Shown: piece by piece, positions 18,384-56,286 of the stretch | Numbering within the stretch: the stretch's first letter is position 1 | Layout of the letters: each line of letters opens with the position of its first letter | DNA from: Synergistaceae bacterium | Lineage (GTDB): Bacteria; Synergistota; Synergistia; Synergistales; Aminobacteriaceae | DNA length: 64,000 nt | Assembly (NCBI GenBank): GCA_017445405.1 | Contig: JAFSUD010000076.1 | Span: 1-64,000, forward strand | Direction: 5' to 3' | Position numbers and translations under genes: made by a program | The notes under the pieces: model-generated | The model's database searches: none | What the model saw: the letters and a program-made list of their open reading frames with translations, nothing else | What the model was told of the DNA's origin: nothing

Positions 18384-19067
18384 TTGGCAGAAGTAGATAT
18401 ATTGCTCGCGGCATATAACGGAGAGAAATTTATTGCAGAACAGATAGAGTCGATTCTTGCGCAAACGTATCAAGATTTCCGGCTGATTATCCGCGACGAC
18501 GACTCTACAGATAATACCCCGGCAATAATAGAGGAATACGCAGCCAGATATCCGGACAAGATTCAAGTAGTTCATGATGATGCTGTATGCAGAAGTGCAG
18601 CAGCTAACTTCTTCCAGCTCCTAACATATGCCAGTGCCGATTACGTCATGTTCAGCGATCAAGACGATTACTGGCTGCCGTATAAGGTGCAGGCTCTTTT
18701 GTGGCACATGAAGGAAGCAGAACGAGCTAATCCAAGAAAACCCGTGATGGTGTTCACAGGATTTGAAGTTGTGGATAAGGAACTTCACAGCATGAAGATA
18801 TACGGGAGCGTTGATGTGCCTGAATATCTTTACAGCTTTACAACAATGCTAATGATGAATAACTGCGTGGCGGGGTGTACAGAAATGATAAACCGTGTGC
18901 TTTATAAGAACATAGGCGGCTATGACGAGAGATGCGGTTATCATGACGCGTTTACGGCTCTATATGCGAGTGCTGTCGGAGTGATAGTGTATCTGACAAT
19001 GCAATCAATAAAGTATAGACAGCATGATAATAATGATATAGGTTACACTGGGGGGGGGGGGCAATAA
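18384..19067 (+). CDS. GT2-family glycosyltransferase, frame cut by a G12 tract
   Basis: TTG start with AGGAGG upstream. The 227 residues keep the whole catalytic part: DILLAAYNGEKFIAEQI, IIRDDDSTDNTPAII, SDQDDYW and the RQHDNNDIG acceptor motif, about 60 percent identical to the preceding gene. Directly after this motif comes a run of twelve G and a stop two codons later. In the frame reached by loss of one G the reading continues for 25 codons (Asn-Asn-Thr-Leu..., basic) to a TAA at 19138-19140; past that TAA the same frame stays open to 19321 and still resembles the helical tail of the paralogue. The gene is therefore either phase-variable, decaying, or both. Confidence 0.75.
   Translation: MAEVDILLAAYNGEKFIAEQIESILAQTYQDFRLIIRDDDSTDNTPAIIEEYAARYPDKIQVVHDDAVCRSAAANFFQLLTYASADYVMFSDQDDYWLPYKVQALLWHMKEAERANPRKPVMVFTGFEVVDKELHSMKIYGSVDVPEYLYSFTTMLMMNNCVAGCTEMINRVLYKNIGGYDERCGYHDAFTALYASAVGVIVYLTMQSIKYRQHDNNDIGYTGGGGQ
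19050..19061 (+). repeat. Poly-G tract (G12) ending the second GT2 frame
   Basis: Twelve G bases directly after the codon for Thr in the RQHDNNDIGYT segment. Eleven or fourteen G would join the catalytic part to the tail-like frame downstream. Confidence 0.9.
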
Positions 19068-28258: not shown

Positions 28259-28931
28259 GAGAACGAATATTTTTGTTGCAGGGACTGGCACGGACATAGG
28301 CAAAACGTACATTGCGGGGCTTATCCTGAAAAAGTTTCTTCGTGCCGGGATAAACGCTGCATACTTCAAGGCTGCAATGAGCGGGAACATAAGGGATGCT
28401 TTCACCAATGCTCCAGTGCCCGGAGATGCCGTGTTCGTGAAGAAGGTATCGGGTTCAAGCCAGCCGTTGAGCGAGATGTGCCCGTATGTCTATGAGGCTG
28501 CTTACTCTCCGCACCTAGCTGCAAGACTCGAGGGGAATCCTGTAGATTTTGATGTTGTGCTCAGGAAGTTTGACGAGCTTTCTGGAAAATATGACTGCGT
28601 GATTATGGAAGGATCAGGAGGGATTCTGTGCCCGATAAGACTCGACAGCAAAACTATATGGCTCGAGCACTTCATCAAGGCCAGAAACTTGGACTGCATC
28701 CTAGTGGCTGATGCAGGACTCGGGACGATTAACGCCGTCGGTCTCACAGCACACTACATGATGGCCAAGAACATAGCCCTCACAGGAATAATCCTGAATC
28801 ACTTTCAGGCGGGAAACGTCATGCACGAGGATAACCTCAAAGTCTGCGAATCCATCACGGGAGCGAATGTCATTGCTTGCGTCAGAGACAACGACGAAGA
28901 GATCAATTTTGCCGGAGGTATCACGTTATGA
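28251..28931 (+). CDS. bioD: Dethiobiotin synthetase
   Basis: 226 residues from ATG at 28251 (a GTG one codon earlier is also open), overlapping the bioB end. FVAGTGTDIGKTYIAGL is the P-loop of BioD; GSGGILCPI and VADAGLGTINAVGLTAHYM complete the active site. Converts DAPA, CO2 and ATP to dethiobiotin. Its last ~33 codons are duplicated just downstream, and its stop overlaps the ATG of a chimeric mini-frame. Confidence 0.93.
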   Translation: MIKRTNIFVAGTGTDIGKTYIAGLILKKFLRAGINAAYFKAAMSGNIRDAFTNAPVPGDAVFVKKVSGSSQPLSEMCPYVYEAAYSPHLAARLEGNPVDFDVVLRKFDELSGKYDCVIMEGSGGILCPIRLDSKTIWLEHFIKARNLDCILVADAGLGTINAVGLTAHYMMAKNIALTGIILNHFQAGNVMHEDNLKVCESITGANVIACVRDNDEEINFAGGITL

Positions 28932-29238
28932 TCTGGTATCCGTACACGCAGATGAAGAACATGAAGACTCCTTACGAGATAGTGAAGGCAGAGGGAGTTT
29001 ATCTCTGCACGAAGGATAAGAAGCTGATTGACGATGACAGCCTCAAGGTCTGCGAGGCCATCACGGGCTTGAAGGTCATTGCCTGCGTAAGGGATAACGA
29101 CGAGGAGATCAATTTTGCCGGAGGTATCACGTTATGATCTGGTATCCATACACGCAGATGAAGAATATGAAGACTCCCTACCAGATAGTAAAGGCAGAGG
29201 GAGTTTATCTCTACACGAAGGATAAGAAGCTGATTGAC
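28833..29238 (+). repeat. Tandem duplication (offset 206 bp) across the bioD/bioA junction
   Basis: Two ~200-base copies, 28833-29032 and 29039-29238, each holding the last ~33 codons of bioD, the ATGA overlap and the first 35 codons of bioA. They are clearly homologous but differ at many third positions and several amino acids, so the event is old, or one copy came from a different strain. Confidence 0.85.
28928..29137 (+). pseudogene. Chimeric BioA-BioD mini-frame
   Basis: 69 codons: the first 35 (MIWYPYTQMKNMKTPYEIVK through KKLID) match the BioA N-terminus, the next 34 (Asp-Ser-Leu-Lys-Val-Cys... to GGITL) match the BioD C-terminus. It keeps ATGA overlaps with bioD upstream and bioA downstream, so it would be translated between them. 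The fusion cannot be an active enzyme; it is a by-product of the duplication, possibly keeping translational coupling alive. Confidence 0.8.
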
Positions 29239-37410: not shown

Positions 37411-37440
37411 ATCCCCTGCATAACAAAAGCGGGGGATTTT
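37411..37440 (+). terminator. Terminator of the Bax-inhibitor gene
   Basis: ATCCCCTGC pairs with GCGGGGGAT around a 9-base loop and is followed by TTTTTTG. Confidence 0.75.
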
Positions 37441-37446
37441 TTGTGT

Positions 37447-37617
37447 TCACTTTCTGCCGTATACCCACTTCAAGCCCCAGTGATAGCATTTATCCATTTC
37501 TTCATGGCCGCTGAAGAAACGCACTAACTTTTCTACGCTGAAAGTCTTATCGTTCACGTTCTCGAGCATGGCAAGCGCACACATTCCCTGTTTGGTGTCG
37601 TGTTCGTCGAGCCTCAT
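37447..37617 (-). pseudogene. Duplicated 3' end of the two-domain TerD-family gene
   Basis: 56 codons beginning MRLDEHDTKQGMCALAM and ending CYHWGLKWVYGRK, nearly identical to the last 56 residues of the neighbouring TerD-family gene (one clear change, Gln to Arg before Phe-Phe-Ser-Gly). Offset between copies is 204 bases. An ATG replaces the corresponding GTC of the parent, but there is no good ribosome site, so it is best read as a duplicated fragment. Confidence 0.75.
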
Positions 37618-37821
37618 AATCACACGGCTGGGGGGAAATTTTTTGCGCTCTCACTTTCTGCCGTATACCCACTTCAAGCCCCAGTGATAGCATTTGTCCA
37701 TCTCTTCATGGCCGCTGAAGAACTGCACTAACTTTTCTACGCTGAATGTCTTATCGTTCACGTTCTCGAGCATGGCAAGCGCACACATTCCCTGTTTGGT
37801 GTCGTGCTCGTCGAGCCTCAC
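37447..37821. repeat. Tandem duplication (offset 204 bp) of a gene 3' end
   Basis: Copies 37447-37617 and 37651-37821 are more than 90 percent identical by eye. They are separated by 33 bases that include GGGGGG and AAATTTTTTG. It has the same scale as the bioD/bioA duplication. Confidence 0.85.
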
Positions 37822-49787: not shown

Positions 49788-51605
49788 GTGAAAAAACTGC
49801 TGCGTGTGATTTTTGCTGGCCTTCTGCTGGCTGCAGCATGGTTTATCCCGCAATGGAGAATGCTATTGTTTGCGGCTTCGTATGTTCTTGCCGGATATGA
49901 CGTTCTGCTTGAGGCTCTGGAAGGAATACGTGAACGCGAAATTTTCGATGAATGCTTCCTCATGGCAATTGCGACTGTCGGAGCTTTAGTTCTCGGGGAA
50001 TATTCAGAGGCGTGTGCAGTGATGATATTTTATCAGCTAGGCGAACTCTTCGGAGATTACGCATCTGACAAGACGAGAGAGAGCATCACCGCATTGATGG
50101 ACATACGCCCGGATTACGCAAACGTTGAGACAGACGGCCAAGTCCAGAGAGCCGAGCCTGCAGGTGTGAAGACAGGCAGCGTTATTCTCGTGAAGCCCGG
50201 CGAAAAGATACCCATTGACGGCGTAATTATTGAGGGACATTCTGCGCTGGACACTAAGGCGTTGACAGGAGAGAGCATCCCCCGCGATGTTGCAGAGGGC
50301 GATGAAGTCCTCAGCGGGTGCGTGAACATGTCGGGAGTCCTGAGAGTGCGCACAGTCCGGGACTTCGGGGAGTCTGCAGTCAGCAAGATACTCGAGCTTG
50401 TGGAGAATGCCTCCTCGCGCAAAGCTAAGGCCGAAAAATTCATCACTAAGTTCTCCCGTGTCTACACTCCTGCTGTCTGCATAGGTGCGTTATTGCTCGT
50501 AGTAATCCCGTCAATCATCACTCCCTCTGACTTCACGAGATGGCTTTATCGTGCGCTTACGTTCTTAGTGATAAGCTGCCCGTGCGCTCTGGTGCTGAGT
50601 ATCCCTCTCACGTTCTTTGCAGCAATCGGAGGAGCAGGAAGAGCCGGGATTCTCGTGAAGGGGAGCAATTACCTCGAGACTCTCGCGAATCTCTCGTGCG
50701 TCGTGTTCGACAAGACAGGGACTCTGACCCGCGGAGTGTTCGAGGTCGTCGCTGTACACCCGGAAGTGTTGAGCGAGACCGAGCTTCTGCACTTGGCCGC
50801 ACACGTCGAGCGGTACTCGGCTCATCCTGTGGCTGACTCGCTGAGACGGGCTTACCCTGACGAGTCGGACTCCTGCAGTGTTAGTGATGCTGAGGAGCTT
50901 GCGGGCTATGGAGTTCGCGCACTCGTAAATGGAGAGACTGTGTGCGTGGGAAACTCTAAGCTGATGGATAAGGTAGGTGCTGAGTGGCATTCATGCAAGG
51001 GAGACTCGGGCAACGTTATTCATGTTGCTGTGAACGGCAAGTATGCGGGACATGTCGTAATTTCTGATGTCGTGAAGGAAAGTGCAGGGGAGGCAGTGAA
51101 AGCTCTTGCTGGTGAGGGCATCTCAAGAATAGTGATGCTTACAGGAGACACACAGGCCAGTGCTGATAATGCAGCCGAGTCTCTGGGGCTTCATGAAGTG
51201 TATGCGGAGCTGCTGCCCGGCGATAAAGTAGCGAAAGTTGAGGAGTTCGCAAGTGAAGGACGAGTCGCGTTTGTCGGGGACGGGATAAATGATGCTCCGG
51301 TTCTTGCGAGGGCAGATGTGGGCGTGGCAATGGGCGCACTGGGAAGTGATGCTGCTGTTGAGGCGGCTGATGTCGTAATCATGAATGATGACCCCCTGAA
51401 AGCTGCTGAGGCAGTCAGAATAGCTCGCAGGTGTATGCGTATCGTGAAGCAGAATATAGCGTTCAGCGTGGGCGTGAAGGTGCTGTGCCTGGTGCTCGGA
51501 GCGTTGGGCTTGGCCGGAATGTGGGCAGCGGTGTTTGCTGATGTCGGCGTTATGGTGATTGCTGTGATGAATGCGATGCGGGCGATGTTCGTGAAGGAGG
51601 TGTGA
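49788..51605 (+). CDS. Heavy-metal P1B-type ATPase (Zn/Cd/Pb exporter, CadA/ZntA-like)
   Basis: 605 residues, GTG start after GGAGG. ISCPCALVLSIPLTFFAAIGGAGRAG has the CPC translocation motif of P1B-2 pumps; VVFDKTGTLTRG is the phosphorylation site; HP locus SAHPVADSL; VAFVGDGINDAPVLARADVGVAMG is the hinge. No N-terminal metal-binding domain: the protein starts directly with membrane helices. Upstream of it, TCAAA and TTTGA with a 6-base gap (49742-49757) could be an operator for the ArsR-type repressor. It exports toxic divalent metals. Confidence 0.92.
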   Translation: MKKLLRVIFAGLLLAAAWFIPQWRMLLFAASYVLAGYDVLLEALEGIREREIFDECFLMAIATVGALVLGEYSEACAVMIFYQLGELFGDYASDKTRESITALMDIRPDYANVETDGQVQRAEPAGVKTGSVILVKPGEKIPIDGVIIEGHSALDTKALTGESIPRDVAEGDEVLSGCVNMSGVLRVRTVRDFGESAVSKILELVENASSRKAKAEKFITKFSRVYTPAVCIGALLLVVIPSIITPSDFTRWLYRALTFLVISCPCALVLSIPLTFFAAIGGAGRAGILVKGSNYLETLANLSCVVFDKTGTLTRGVFEVVAVHPEVLSETELLHLAAHVERYSAHPVADSLRRAYPDESDSCSVSDAEELAGYGVRALVNGETVCVGNSKLMDKVGAEWHSCKGDSGNVIHVAVNGKYAGHVVISDVVKESAGEAVKALAGEGISRIVMLTGDTQASADNAAESLGLHEVYAELLPGDKVAKVEEFASEGRVAFVGDGINDAPVLARADVGVAMGALGSDAAVEAADVVIMNDDPLKAAEAVRIARRCMRIVKQNIAFSVGVKVLCLVLGALGLAGMWAAVFADVGVMVIAVMNAMRAMFVKEV

Positions 51606-51653
51606 TAGAATCACGGGCATCACCCAAAAATTTACGTGAAAGGAACGTTGACG

Positions 51654-51809
51654 ATGAGCAATAACGACGCTACAATACAAGCCACAAGCCACAAGCCACA
51701 AGCCACAAGCCACAAGCCACAAGCCCAACTCATGTCCGCTAATATCCGTAATAGTCCCCGTGTACAAGACAGAGAAGTATCTAGACCAGTGCATAACCAG
51801 CATAATTAA
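51654..51809 (+). CDS. Leader frame of the heptamer-repeat GT2 gene (out of frame as read)
   Basis: ATG with AAAGGA ten bases upstream opens a 51-codon frame (MSNNDATIQATSHKPQATSH...) that runs through seven heptamers and stops at TAA inside the glycosyltransferase gene. With six copies the frame would join Ser-Cys-Pro-Leu-Ile-Ser-Val-Ile-Val-Pro-Val-Tyr, the true N-terminus of the glycosyltransferase. So this is the 5' end of that gene in the OFF register. Confidence 0.75.
   Translation: MSNNDATIQATSHKPQATSHKPQAQLMSANIRNSPRVQDREVSRPVHNQHN
51677..51725 (+). repeat. Heptanucleotide repeat (ACAAGCC)7
   Basis: Seven perfect copies of ACAAGCC directly after the start region of a GT2 gene. One unit changes the frame by one base, so copy number controls whether start codon and catalytic part are in register; six copies would be in frame, seven are not. 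Confidence 0.95.
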
Positions 51810-52704
51810 CCAGACCTACACGAACTTAGAAATAATTCTTGTTGATGACGGCTCACCTGATAACTGCCCGGCCAAATGCGACGAATGGGCACGCAGGGAC
51901 AGCCGGATACATGTGATTCATAAGCCTAACGGAGGCCCTGATACTGCGCGTAACGCAGGACTTGACGCAGCAAAAGGAGAATTTGTCGGGACAATAGACA
52001 GCGATGATTTCGTTGCGCCGGAGTTTTACGAGAGGCTCTACAAACTGCTGACGGAGCACGATGCAGATATCAGCATGTGCAGAATTATCGGAGTGAATGA
52101 AGACGGCTCAATAATTAAGAGTGTATCTGAAAATGAACCAGAATATGCGGTACTCTCAAACGAAGACTTGATGAATGGATTTCTGCATGGCTGGGGAGAG
52201 TTCACTAATATCTGGGTGAGCTGGGATAAGCTCTACAGAGCAGAAATATTCCAGAATCTAAGATTTGCAGGAGGCAACCATGAGGACAGCGGAACACTTC
52301 ACAGGATTTTCGGCAACTGTCAGAAGCTCATATCAACAACGGAACGCCTATGTTACTACCGCCACCGTGAAGACAGCACAATGGGAAAACTGCACAGAGG
52401 ATTTCAGATCACAAGTTTTCAGTCAATGGTCTACGCAGGCAAAGACAGCTATGAATACTTTATGAGCATTGGGAGGCCGGATATTGCTGATATGTGCTTG
52501 CGGAGGCTCGGCGGGGCTTTGAGGTACGGCTTAAATAACATGAACTATTTGCAGAACAGAGGGGAATTTGCCTGTCTGCCTGATACTTTCAGGAAAATGA
52601 TGCTGTCTCACAGTTTCGGGACAAAGCTGCGTGGCGTAAAACTTGCGCTGTGCTGGCTGTGTAGTATATTTAGGCCATTCACACGCAAGGAGAAGAATAC
52701 ATGA
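51760..52704 (+). CDS. GT2-family glycosyltransferase, heptamer-controlled, OFF as read
   Basis: 314 residues from the first start codon in its own frame (GTG 51760, no ribosome site). Catalytic features: IILVDDGSPDNCPAKCDE, GGPDTARNAGL, IDSDDFVAPEFYERL (DxD), and a helical C-terminus. The frame is open upstream to 51658 and encodes Leu-Ile-Ser-Val-Ile-Val-Pro-Val before this GTG, which every GT2 needs as its first beta strand, so the true start is the ATG at 51654, out of register. PatB-like gene follows with ATGA overlap, so switching may affect it too. Confidence 0.8.
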   Translation: MYKTEKYLDQCITSIINQTYTNLEIILVDDGSPDNCPAKCDEWARRDSRIHVIHKPNGGPDTARNAGLDAAKGEFVGTIDSDDFVAPEFYERLYKLLTEHDADISMCRIIGVNEDGSIIKSVSENEPEYAVLSNEDLMNGFLHGWGEFTNIWVSWDKLYRAEIFQNLRFAGGNHEDSGTLHRIFGNCQKLISTTERLCYYRHREDSTMGKLHRGFQITSFQSMVYAGKDSYEYFMSIGRPDIADMCLRRLGGALRYGLNNMNYLQNRGEFACLPDTFRKMMLSHSFGTKLRGVKLALCWLCSIFRPFTRKEKNT

Positions 52705-53891
52705 CCTACGATTTCACGACAACACATAAACGCTTTCACACCGGCTCGGGAAAATGGAACACCCTCCTTCAGTACGGCCTAACTGAGGACACAGACATTA
52801 TCCCTTTCTCTGTTGCTGATATGGAGTTCACGACAGCTCCCGAGATAGCTGACGCTCTCAAGCACGCAATAGACTCTTCCGTCATAGGTTATGCCGGCCC
52901 GACAGCAAATTATCTTGATTCAGTATGCTCATGGATGAAGACTCGCCACAACTGGGACGCAAAGCCCGAATGGATTCTGAACACTCACGGAGTAGTAGAT
53001 GCGTTCTTTGAGGCGGTCAAGGCCTTCACGAATCCGGGAGACGGCGTGATGCTCCTGACTCCCGTGTATCACCCGATGTACATGGCCGTAAACTTCACAG
53101 GAAGAAAGCTCGTCGAGTCTTCACTCGTCAGCACAGGGACTCGTTACGAGATAGATTTTGCGGACTTTGAGCGCAAGGCCTCAGACCCGAGCGTCAAGTT
53201 GCTGATTCTCTGCAGCCCTCATAATCCGGTCGGGAGAGTCTGGACTCGTGAGGAGCTTACACGAATCGGGAACATCTGCCTGAAGAATCACGTGCTTGTG
53301 GTATCAGACGAGATACACGCCGACCTTGTGATGCCCGGACACGCTCACACAGTGTTTGCGTCAATAAGTGAAGAGTTTGCGGATAACTGCCTCGTCCTGA
53401 CTGCGCCGAGCAAGACGTTCAACATTGCGGGACTCCAGACATCTAACATCTTCATTCCGAACGATGAGCTTAGAGCGAAGTATCTTGACGAACTCAAGCT
53501 CACGAACCCGATGCCTACCTGCGGTATATTGGGCTATGTTGCGAGCGAGGCAGCATACACATATTGTGCGCAGTGGCTTGACGAGTGCCTGAAGGTCATT
53601 GATGAGAACAGAAGAATTATTGCTGACTTCATGGCTGATGAGCTTCCGCAGGTTAAGGTGTATGACCTCGAGGGTACTTACCTGCTTTGGCTCGACATGA
53701 ACGGACTGGGCATAGATTACCGTGAACTTGAGCGCATTAACCGTGAAGAGGCGAGGCTGTTCTTTGACGAGGGATATATTTTCGGGAAACAGGGCGAGGG
53801 CTTCGAGAGATGGAATATTGCGTGTCCGAAGAGGTATATTCATGACGCATTAAGTAGAATGAAGCTATCTTACACCAAGCATATAAGGTAG
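52701..53891 (+). CDS. PatB/MalY-type pyridoxal-phosphate C-S lyase/aminotransferase
   Basis: 396 residues. Fold type I PLP enzyme: FSVADMEFTTAPEIADAL opens MalY/PatB proteins; VYHPMYMAV, LILCSPHNPVGRVWTREEL and VVSDEIHADLVMPGH bind cofactor; the Schiff-base Lys is in TAPSKTFNIAGLQ. Typical activity: cystathionine or cysteine-S-conjugate beta-lyase releasing thiols. The start overlaps the glycosyltransferase stop, so this gene is coupled to a phase-variable frame. Length matches the family (about 390). Confidence 0.9.
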   Translation: MTYDFTTTHKRFHTGSGKWNTLLQYGLTEDTDIIPFSVADMEFTTAPEIADALKHAIDSSVIGYAGPTANYLDSVCSWMKTRHNWDAKPEWILNTHGVVDAFFEAVKAFTNPGDGVMLLTPVYHPMYMAVNFTGRKLVESSLVSTGTRYEIDFADFERKASDPSVKLLILCSPHNPVGRVWTREELTRIGNICLKNHVLVVSDEIHADLVMPGHAHTVFASISEEFADNCLVLTAPSKTFNIAGLQTSNIFIPNDELRAKYLDELKLTNPMPTCGILGYVASEAAYTYCAQWLDECLKVIDENRRIIADFMADELPQVKVYDLEGTYLLWLDMNGLGIDYRELERINREEARLFFDEGYIFGKQGEGFERWNIACPKRYIHDALSRMKLSYTKHIR

Positions 53892-53894
53892 AAT

Positions 53895-53985
53895 GATTGC
53901 GCGTCCGGACTGCCTAGAGGTCTGCGTGGCTCGTCCCATTAAGTTGGGACTGTTCGTGGAGAGGTGGCCGGGCACATTTTTTGTG
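53895..53985 (+). ncRNA. Candidate structured RNA or complex terminator
   Basis: GCGTCCGG (53901-53908) pairs with CCGGGCAC (53968-53975), directly followed by T6. Inside lie a perfect 6-bp hairpin GTCCCA/TGGGAC (53933-53950) and a possible GAC/GTC hairpin. About 75 bases with a multi-hairpin shape and terminator tail suggest a small RNA; the sequence does not match tRNA, SRP, 6S or RNase P motifs I know. Confidence 0.35.
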
Positions 53986-54039
53986 CTAGAATGCTGGCAT
54001 GATTACCGCAACACATAAAACAAACAGGAGATATTGACA

Positions 54040-55182
54040 ATGACGAAAGAAATCGTTACACTAGAGCACCGAGCACCGAGCACCGAGCACCGAGCACCGA
54101 GCACCGAGCACCAGCCCGCAATTGCACCCGAGCAACAGGTCGCGCAAGCACACGAAGTTTCCCAAGACTCCCCGTTAATCAGCATCATAGTACCCGCCTA
54201 TAACTGCGGAAAGTTCATAGCTAAAGCACTGGACAGCCTCATCAATCAGGACATACCATCACGAAACTACGAAGTCATCATCACAGACGATGGCTCGACC
54301 GACGACACAGGCACAATCTGCGACACCTACGCACAAAGATTCCCGTTCATTCACGTAACTCACACCCAGAACTTCGGAGCATCCCACGCCCGCAATGCTG
54401 CCCTGCCTCAATGCAAGGGAGAGTACATTACGTTCTGCGATGCTGACGATTTCGTCTCTCCTCAGCTTGTCTCTGTGCTCATGAAAGCAATTGATGTTCA
54501 CCGCAGGCCGGATTTATTGGTGTGGCGTGTCTTCATGGATATTCCTATGCGGGGCTGGTCTGTCTTCCCTGAAAGCGGCTGGCCAAGCTATGACATTCAG
54601 AGCATGAAGTCTTCTGCAGAGAATACATCAGGACGTGATGAACTCTTCACAAAAATTGTTGGCGACGTTAGAGTACAGGGCTTCACCCACAATAAGGCAC
54701 TCCGTCGCGGCATCATTGGGGATATTCGCTTTGATGAGAGCTTGATTTACGCCGAAGATGAAGTGTTTTTCCTTAACATCCTTGAATGTCATGAACACCT
54801 CAGAGTGTGCTATCTGGATTATTACTTGTACTGCTACGTCCAGCACAAAGCTACAGGACTCTTGAGAGACCCCGCTAACCAATACGACAATAACGGCGTA
54901 ACTAGATTCATGTCAGCGCAGAAGAAAATACTCGCGATGAAGAATATTCCTCCGTCGGCATCAAACACTGTGAAGGGCAGAATATACGCTCTGTCATTGC
55001 AAAACCTCTTTAACTTGCCGGAAACATTAACCCCAGCAGCATATAACACACTGAGAGCCAACATGCATAAATACGCCAGATATTACTACCTTAATTTGTC
55101 ATACACTATGCGGGAAAAGGTCAGGGCATTCATCAAACACATTCTTGTACTTCTGCACATTCACAAGCCGCGCAGGAAATAA
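54040..55182 (+). CDS. GT2-family glycosyltransferase, heptamer-controlled, ON as read
   Basis: 380 residues, ATG with AGGAG nine bases upstream (a TTG six bases earlier is too close to it). After MTKEIVTLEHRAPSTEHRAP-type repeats (residues ~8-25) and a Pro/Gln/Ala-rich spacer comes the GT-A fold: SPLISIIVPAYNCGKFIAKAL, IITDDGSTDDTGTI, GASHARNAAL, ITFCDADDFVSPQL (DxD). In this reading seven GAGCACC copies keep start and catalytic part in one frame. The leader layout (TTGAC-ATGA, repeat, spacer, Ser-Pro-Leu-Ile-Ser) mirrors the other heptamer gene. Confidence 0.88.
   Translation: MTKEIVTLEHRAPSTEHRAPSTEHQPAIAPEQQVAQAHEVSQDSPLISIIVPAYNCGKFIAKALDSLINQDIPSRNYEVIITDDGSTDDTGTICDTYAQRFPFIHVTHTQNFGASHARNAALPQCKGEYITFCDADDFVSPQLVSVLMKAIDVHRRPDLLVWRVFMDIPMRGWSVFPESGWPSYDIQSMKSSAENTSGRDELFTKIVGDVRVQGFTHNKALRRGIIGDIRFDESLIYAEDEVFFLNILECHEHLRVCYLDYYLYCYVQHKATGLLRDPANQYDNNGVTRFMSAQKKILAMKNIPPSASNTVKGRIYALSLQNLFNLPETLTPAAYNTLRANMHKYARYYYLNLSYTMREKVRAFIKHILVLLHIHKPRRK
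54064..54112 (+). repeat. Heptanucleotide repeat (GAGCACC)7
   Basis: Seven perfect copies in codons 9-25 of a GT2 gene. The unit sequence differs from the ACAAGCC unit of the other gene, so the two arose or were recruited separately although copy number is the same. Confidence 0.95.
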
Positions 55183-55239: not shown

Positions 55240-56286
55240 TTGCTCATAAGCATTATAGCTTTCGTAGTAGTTATAGCTGTCTGCGTTATCGTCCATGAGT
55301 ACGGACATTACATCACAGCAAGAATCTTAGGCGTTCAGGTTCACGAGTTCGCGTTCGGAATGGGCCCGGCAGTCCTTCAGCACCGCGCAAAAAACGGTAT
55401 GCTCTGGTCGTGGCGGCTCTTCCCGATCGGAGGCTTCTGCCGTCTCGCCGGCATGAATGAGGAAGACGATGGAGAGTACGTCATACCCGGACGCGGCTTC
55501 AATGAACAGTCTGCGTGGAAGAGATTCTTAATCCTCCTCAACGGCTCGGCCTTCAACGTCGCTCTCGCTGTCGTCCTGATGGCAGTCTTCCTCTGGGGGC
55601 ACGGCATCCTCGACATGGACAGCACCAGAATCGGCGAGATCATGCCCGGCTTCCCGAGCGAACAGGCAGGACTCCGAGTCGGCGATGAAGTCCTCAAGGT
55701 CAACTCCCACGAGGTCAGCAAGTGGCGCGAAATGTCCGAACTCATCCGCACAGAAAGCACACAGAATCCTTCACTCACTCTCACAGTCAGGCGCGGAGAA
55801 GACATGCTCACTCTCACAGCCAATGTCCCCAACAATGAGGAGTACGGAAGGCCTATGCTCGGAGTGTCTCCGTCGTATGTGCGCTACGGATTTGCTGAGG
55901 CTTGCAGGTCTTCACTCAGCTACACCTACAGAATGACTAAGCTCATGCTTCAGGGACTCGCGGAATTTGTGCTCGGCAGACAGGAAGCAGACGTTACCGG
56001 CCCTGTCGGAATCGCCTCAATGTCAGGGCGTGCTCTGCAGTCCGGCATGTGGGACTTCATGACCTTCATAGCGATTATTGCTCTGAACTTGGGCATCCTG
56101 AATCTCTTCCCGATCCCTGCTCTTGACGGAGGAAGACTCTTGTTCGTCATGCTAGAGATGATTACCCGCAGAAGGCTTCCCGAGAAAGTAGAGAACTGGA
56201 TTCACACGGCGGGCTTCGTAGTGTTAATCTCATTGATGATTCTGATAACGTGCAAGGATGTCTACACGTTGTTCTTCACGCGCTAG
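55240..56286 (+). CDS. rseP: Site-2 intramembrane metalloprotease RseP
   Basis: 348 residues from TTG with AAAGGAG upstream. VIVHEYGHYITARILGVQVHEFAFGMGP gives the zinc HExxH in the first membrane helix; GEIMPGFPSEQAGLRVGDEVLKVNSHEV is one PDZ domain; LNLGILNLFPIPALDGGRLLFVMLEMI holds the LDG zinc ligand. Four membrane segments. Cleaves membrane proteins such as anti-sigma factors. Often followed by ispG, as here, 9 bases downstream. Confidence 0.93.
   Translation: MLISIIAFVVVIAVCVIVHEYGHYITARILGVQVHEFAFGMGPAVLQHRAKNGMLWSWRLFPIGGFCRLAGMNEEDDGEYVIPGRGFNEQSAWKRFLILLNGSAFNVALAVVLMAVFLWGHGILDMDSTRIGEIMPGFPSEQAGLRVGDEVLKVNSHEVSKWREMSELIRTESTQNPSLTLTVRRGEDMLTLTANVPNNEEYGRPMLGVSPSYVRYGFAEACRSSLSYTYRMTKLMLQGLAEFVLGRQEADVTGPVGIASMSGRALQSGMWDFMTFIAIIALNLGILNLFPIPALDGGRLLFVMLEMITRRRLPEKVENWIHTAGFVVLISLMILITCKDVYTLFFTR

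Follow-up and report, generated by a model that had tools for sequence, protein, structure and literature searches.

Tandem heptamer arrays behind a promoter-like start element in glycosyltransferase genes of a Synergistaceae genus: a probable system of frame-switching loci

Two neighbouring GT2-family glycosyltransferase genes of a Synergistaceae bacterium, GT-A and GT-B (1.3 kb between the genes and 2.4 kb between their arrays), each carry seven tandem copies of a heptamer just behind the start codon. The unit differs between the two genes, and the glycosyltransferase frame is in register with the start codon in only one of them, raising the question of whether such repeats are switches of the reading frame. 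The window, i.e. the whole stretch of 64,000 nucleotides analysed here, corresponds to contig C41 of G000, a genome of 2.53 Mb (87.6% complete, 103 contigs), and (GAGCACC)7 and (ACAAGCC)7 were the only heptamer arrays with at least three exact copies in it (Table 1). GT-B is very probably a phase-variable (contingency) locus, in which gain or loss of a heptamer would switch the GT2 frame.

Table 1. Features of the GT-A and GT-B loci (positions in the window).
Feature	Position	Strand	Description
P1 of GT-A	51603..51611	+	TGATAGAAT
Shine-Dalgarno of GT-A	51640..51644	+	AAGGA
P2 of GT-A	51648..51676	+	TTGACG-17-TACAAT
GT-A	51654..52704	+	GT2-family gene, start ATG at 51654
Array of GT-A	51677..51725	+	(ACAAGCC)7, OFF register
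Aminotransferase class I/II gene	52701..53891	+	between GT-A and GT-B; kept left flank of the GT-B locus elsewhere
P1 of GT-B	53984..53992	+	TGCTAGAAT, an extended -10 promoter element ahead of the Shine-Dalgarno
Shine-Dalgarno of GT-B	54026..54030	+	AGGAG, 9 nt ahead of the ATG
P2 of GT-B	54034..54062	+	sigma-70-like TTGACA-17-TACACT, overlaps the start codon
GT-B	54040..55182	+	GT2-family glycosyltransferase, frame open
Start codon of GT-B	54040..54042	+	ATG, in the P2 spacer
Array of GT-B	54064..54112	+	(GAGCACC)7, ON register
M50 (RIP) metalloprotease gene	55240..56286	+	kept right flank of the GT-B locus

Arrays and reading frames

The sequence-only reading placed (GAGCACC)7 in a GT2 gene standing in the ON register, and this was confirmed by an exact array (100% matches, 21 bases past the ATG and in frame with GT-B), by a frame unbroken to the stop at 55182 (380 codons from the ATG, 382 from an in-frame TTG at 54034), and by a GT2 domain (PF00535) above the curated cut-off at residues 50-160 of 382 (E 3.6e-34). 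The repeat is a perfect tandem in the 5' coding region with a unit length that is no multiple of 3, and a perfect array of 49 bases is far beyond chance expectation. GT-B is on with 7 units and would also be on with 4 or 10; its start, rebuilt with 6 or 8 units, gave peptides of 43 and 56 residues respectively, bearing out the earlier claim that one unit gained or lost abolishes the frame. The glycosyltransferase frame of GT-A (from CCG at 51736, reading PLISVIVP) was open, yet out of frame with the start ATG: the gene is off with seven units, and 6 or 9 would open the frame.

In the proposed mechanism, a transcript from P1 would carry the Shine-Dalgarno sequence and the start codon just ahead of the heptamer array. 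A 7-base unit would be lost or gained, most likely via slipped-strand mispairing, and the change would move the GT2 reading frame into or out of phase with the ATG, only one of the three registers yielding the enzyme. In the genome as assembled, GT-B is on and GT-A is off.

Related loci were collected from a genus set of 43 Synergistaceae genomes (mostly MAGs, many from ruminants; single assemblies of different species). In GT-A, GT-B and 40 readable loci, full-length product or early stop was computed to be set by the register. Fifteen of these 40 (chance matches, contig ends and array-less loci having been left out) were on and 25 were off, all three registers were represented and the genes were mostly intact; one of the 15 on loci, L027, carries a later stop codon. 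At most loci no start codon of the glycosyltransferase frame occurs in the stretch from the array to the conserved domain, and translation must therefore begin before the array. The out-of-frame genes might instead be decaying pseudogenes or assembly errors, and the data are indeed mostly MAGs, with an in-frame array followed by a later stop codon in contig C63 of genome G010. This explanation is, however, very improbable, as nearly all loci with an out-of-frame gene retain an open frame of 230-490 codons and the on share of 15/40 fits one register in three. The mixture of on and off states is what is expected from a freely moving register with nearly all genes still open. All 20 distinct heptamer units were stop-free in all frames, a weak indication given that about 89% of random units of the same composition would be so too.

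Spread of the arrays and replacement of the unit at one site

The sequence-only reading had proposed a search of relatives for heptamers before GT2 domains, and arrays were found genus-wide. The pattern TTGACRRTG-N14-TANANT gave 58 matches in 28 of the 43 genomes, compared with about a dozen for the reversed pattern. Among 56 distinct matches inspected, 9 look like chance; nearly all of the 47 others have a Shine-Dalgarno sequence before the pattern and a tandem 7-mer (rarely a 5-mer or 8-mer) directly after it. When the pattern plus a Shine-Dalgarno sequence was scanned for in one genome per species (84,980 species), 104 matches were obtained, 20 of them in Synergistales records, many from goat, deer and reindeer gut: 17 with arrays (at least 2 exact copies), one with an array interrupted by Ns, and two with remnants. 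The other 84 matches showed no heptamer array save one weak case (2.4 copies), and one had a tetramer array. Other genera of the family contained the motif at a low rate, with no array in the 9 matches inspected, and the GT-B protein used as a query gave no match in named genomes.

Within G000, a 5-mer or 7-mer array was located near the start in many of the 20 GT2 matches. Over 552 kb, 24 rows of arrays with at least 3 copies were listed (two rows being parts of one interrupted array), together with at least 15 runs of G or C that are nine or more bases long; some of this sequence was picked for the motif or a glycosyltransferase match, and the array density is not a genome-wide estimate. Among the G000 contigs read, three (C33, C58 and C82) have their position 1 within an array of 5-mers or 7-mers, which is expected if array lengths differ in the population, though such breaks could also stem from units common to several loci.

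The GT-B locus could be followed between species: the gene order aminotransferase, glycosyltransferase, M50 protease is kept in L021-L025, and the glycosyltransferase and protease genes are adjacent in L027 and L030. Identity at this site was 77-87% for the protease but just 44-51% for the glycosyltransferase. The unit at the site is GAGCACC in G000, CAGCCGA in G041 and G025, ATCGCCC followed by AACGCCC in G015, CGCCCAA in G010, and a vestigial array in G020; both on and off states occur there between species. Switch position and period are kept at one syntenic site, and the sequence is replaced. As the units differ by species, the peptide repeat is not what is conserved.

The array would be translated in the ON state, and a functional N-terminal repeat peptide might be encoded by it. 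This is so improbable as to be nearly negligible: the unit, the register and the copy number vary between genes and species at the same locus, and the proteins of array-less relatives (L026, L028) start directly at the domain. The sequence-only reading had judged the peptide unlikely to be functional and had named its conservation as evidence against a switch; the opposite of such conservation was found at the syntenic site. Selection for frame-switching N-termini, also proposed there, is now strongly supported by the kept site and unit length, the changing unit sequence and the presence of all three registers, and is further backed by the mostly intact genes and by the same element on unrelated surface-glycan families.

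These array-controlled families comprise GT2, GT4, GT8, LicD, WbsX, Acyl_transf_3, PS_pyruv_trans, Bac_transf and lectin domains. The targets belong mostly to surface-glycan families, with a nitroreductase and a phosphoribosyltransferase as exceptions. With the same element on many such genes, sugar-transfer steps would switch independently and the surface polysaccharide would be diversified. Large C-type lectin proteins are encoded behind arrays at L251:8143-11289 (also with a papain-like peptidase) and L053:1596-3029; surface or secreted proteins may thus switch too.

In a second class, of about five loci, the array falls within a short leader ORF, and one of the registers brings the stop of this leader into overlap with the following gene's start (TAATG, ATGA or similar). 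Such leaders stand, for instance, ahead of sugar-transfer genes of the ATP-grasp type (L245, L254) and of a nitroreductase gene (L226). From this arrangement the register is predicted to decide translational coupling, by setting the overlap of leader stop and next start. In G041, leader-type arrays precede the non-glycan genes L226:3603-4595 (nitroreductase) and L232:5699-6670 (phosphoribosyltransferase-domain).

Fifty-one bases, from before the Shine-Dalgarno sequence through the -10 box, are identical in G010 ahead of the L027 GT2 gene and the L058 gene, the start of which resembles the GT8 set (L058 is placed by that likeness). This one clear case suggests that the start element was copied between unrelated genes. 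Within genomes, units were shared only slightly more often than expected by chance (11 of 67 pairs against a shuffled mean of 5.1, p 0.027).

A promoter-like element at the edge of the arrays

The "TTGAC-ATGA start zone" that the sequence-only reading had described is indeed common to both GT2 genes, but that description missed the leader-ORF class and a promoter abutting the array: the zone is a near-consensus sigma-70 promoter-like element (TTGACA-17-TAnAAT), P2, placed between the Shine-Dalgarno sequence and the repeat. Its -10 box abuts the array, ending 1 nt ahead of it in GT-B and exactly at it in GT-A, and the two best promoter matches in 3.8 kb were those at the two arrays (10/12 matches, 17-base spacer). 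Further upstream, P1 fits a normal promoter, to judge by its place, with a transcript that would take in the ribosome site as well as the start codon and array; the best match to the P1-type extended -10 (TGNTATAAT) peaked 33-38 nt before the P2 -35 in 47 loci. A P2 transcript, if made, would start within the array.

The association of P2 with arrays was tight. A census covered 457 kb of G000 and 400 kb of the relative G041, chosen without regard to the promoter except for contig C3 of G000, which was first met via the promoter pattern (the other G000 contigs were first met via glycosyltransferase matches). An abutting P2 (up to 2 mismatches in 12, spacing 16-18) was present in 13 of 17 judgeable 5-mer or 7-mer arrays, the other 4 having no good P2; random positions gave 0.23% per orientation, or about a 0.5% chance per array. 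Arrays of 6-mers numbered just two in this census, had about 3 copies and lacked P2. Protein homology alone yielded 45 GT2 loci, of which 14 of the 15 with an array carry P2, compared with 4 of the 30 array-less ones (Fisher p 2.4e-7), and two of these four (L023, L045) look like vestigial arrays. The array started -2 to +5 nt from the end of the P2 -10 in 56 of 57 loci, within the interval searched, and the unit lengths of P2-linked arrays were 7 (47 loci), 5 (9 loci) and 8 (one locus), with 5, 7 and 8 being the lengths tried.

P2 is not needed for simple frame switching, and three further roles were weighed for it. The first, that P2 serves genes further down the operon, was given up as a general rule, since roughly half of 30 array genes lacked a nearby follower on the same strand in the sequence covered, in which several loci end soon past the stop.

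The second role is transcriptional tuning, in which an active P2 and the number of units past its -10 would set the transcript level, possibly besides frame switching. Both the census and the comparison of GT2 loci are in line with it, as is the precedent of hmw1A of H. influenzae, where the P2 -10 shares bases with the first heptamer and the transcript level falls as units are added (PMC8262952); in the leader class, moreover, a P2 transcript would hold the next gene's own Shine-Dalgarno sequence. In the main class, however, such a transcript would start inside the array without the glycosyltransferase start codon and could not make the enzyme, and the three registers with open frames indicate translation through the array. 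Tuning appears rather unlikely.

The third role concerns the array itself. RNA polymerase opening and initiating at the array edge could promote slippage and raise instability alongside the frame switch, and initiation may have helped to create tandem units there. P2 tracks the array and not the gene, the array begins almost at the end of the -10, and its unit length is near the usual distance from -10 to +1. In other bacteria, however, the same motif occurs with no array, meaning that P2 alone makes no arrays, and this role is unlikely. Quite doubtful is the broader proposal of a dedicated composite module copied among unrelated glycan genes (a Shine-Dalgarno sequence, a near-consensus promoter over the start codon and, where transcription from it would begin, a short tandem array), in which P2 would make or destabilise the array, with initiation as the mutagenic driver. 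With a promoter tied to the edge of the array, it becomes a testable question whether transcription initiation drives repeat slippage.

The -10 box was mostly TACAAT or TAAAAT in P2, and TATAAT in P1. Avoidance of a rare ATA codon as the reason for TACAAT was rejected, ATA being 31% of the Ile codons here.

Relation to known systems and other repeats of the window

Phase variation by SSR is itself already known; the genus-wide promoter/start/array element is new. The LPS glycosyltransferase genes of H. influenzae (lic2A, lgtC) are the classical case of SSR frame switching, and a GT2 gene of strain R2846 has (AGTC)14 right after the start codon, as given in an excerpt of PMC2651432. The Synergistaceae loci resemble these genes in having an SSR in the 5' coding region, a length change of which would switch a surface glycosyltransferase. 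They differ in the unit (tetramers there, mostly heptamers here), in its sequence, which varies at one site here, and in the P2 that abuts the array, a promoter not described for the LPS genes in that excerpt (PMC2651432).

In hmw1A/hmw2A of the same species, an array of the heptamer ATCTTTC separates two promoters and belongs to the 5' untranslated region of the transcript from P2, and the hmw1A array tunes the transcript with graded output (PMC8262952). The heptamer array at the -10 of P2 and the two-promoter layout are shared with the Synergistaceae loci, where the promoter is a consensus match. In contrast to hmw1A/hmw2A, with one unit sequence and an adhesin as target (PMC8262952), the Synergistaceae loci have the array past the start codon and within the reading frame, and their targets are glycan genes; in the main class the array does not occupy an untranslated region ahead of the start codon, as both the Shine-Dalgarno sequence and the ATG come first and at most loci no start follows. 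The Synergistaceae element joins both layouts, i.e. an SSR after the start codon and an array at the -10 of a promoter.

The number of candidate genes per genome, with the poly-G/C tracts of G000 in addition, recalls the phasomes of Campylobacter and Neisseria (PMC6321876, PMC5953494), in contrast to which the present system has 5- and 7-mer arrays with a common promoter/start element in an uncultured Synergistaceae genus. In the open-licence literature, no report of the system was found under Synergistetes phase variation, rumen Synergistaceae SSRs or phase-variable Fretibacterium. Together the loci would make up a contingency-locus system of large size in a gut lineage that is uncultured, and switches of this kind could matter for how gut bacteria resist phages and interact with their hosts.

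Other repeats were observed in the window. Two tandem duplications of about 205 bp (28835-29238 and 37436-37820; 90% and 95% matches) are unrelated to the arrays. A G12 tract (19050-19061) lies towards the 3' end of the open frame that comes after a GT2 match at 18399, where a change in length would alter the C-terminal tail. A G10 tract (1929-1938) in the 5' part of a flavoprotein-like gene, in frame as assembled, is likely a second kind of phase-variable tract.
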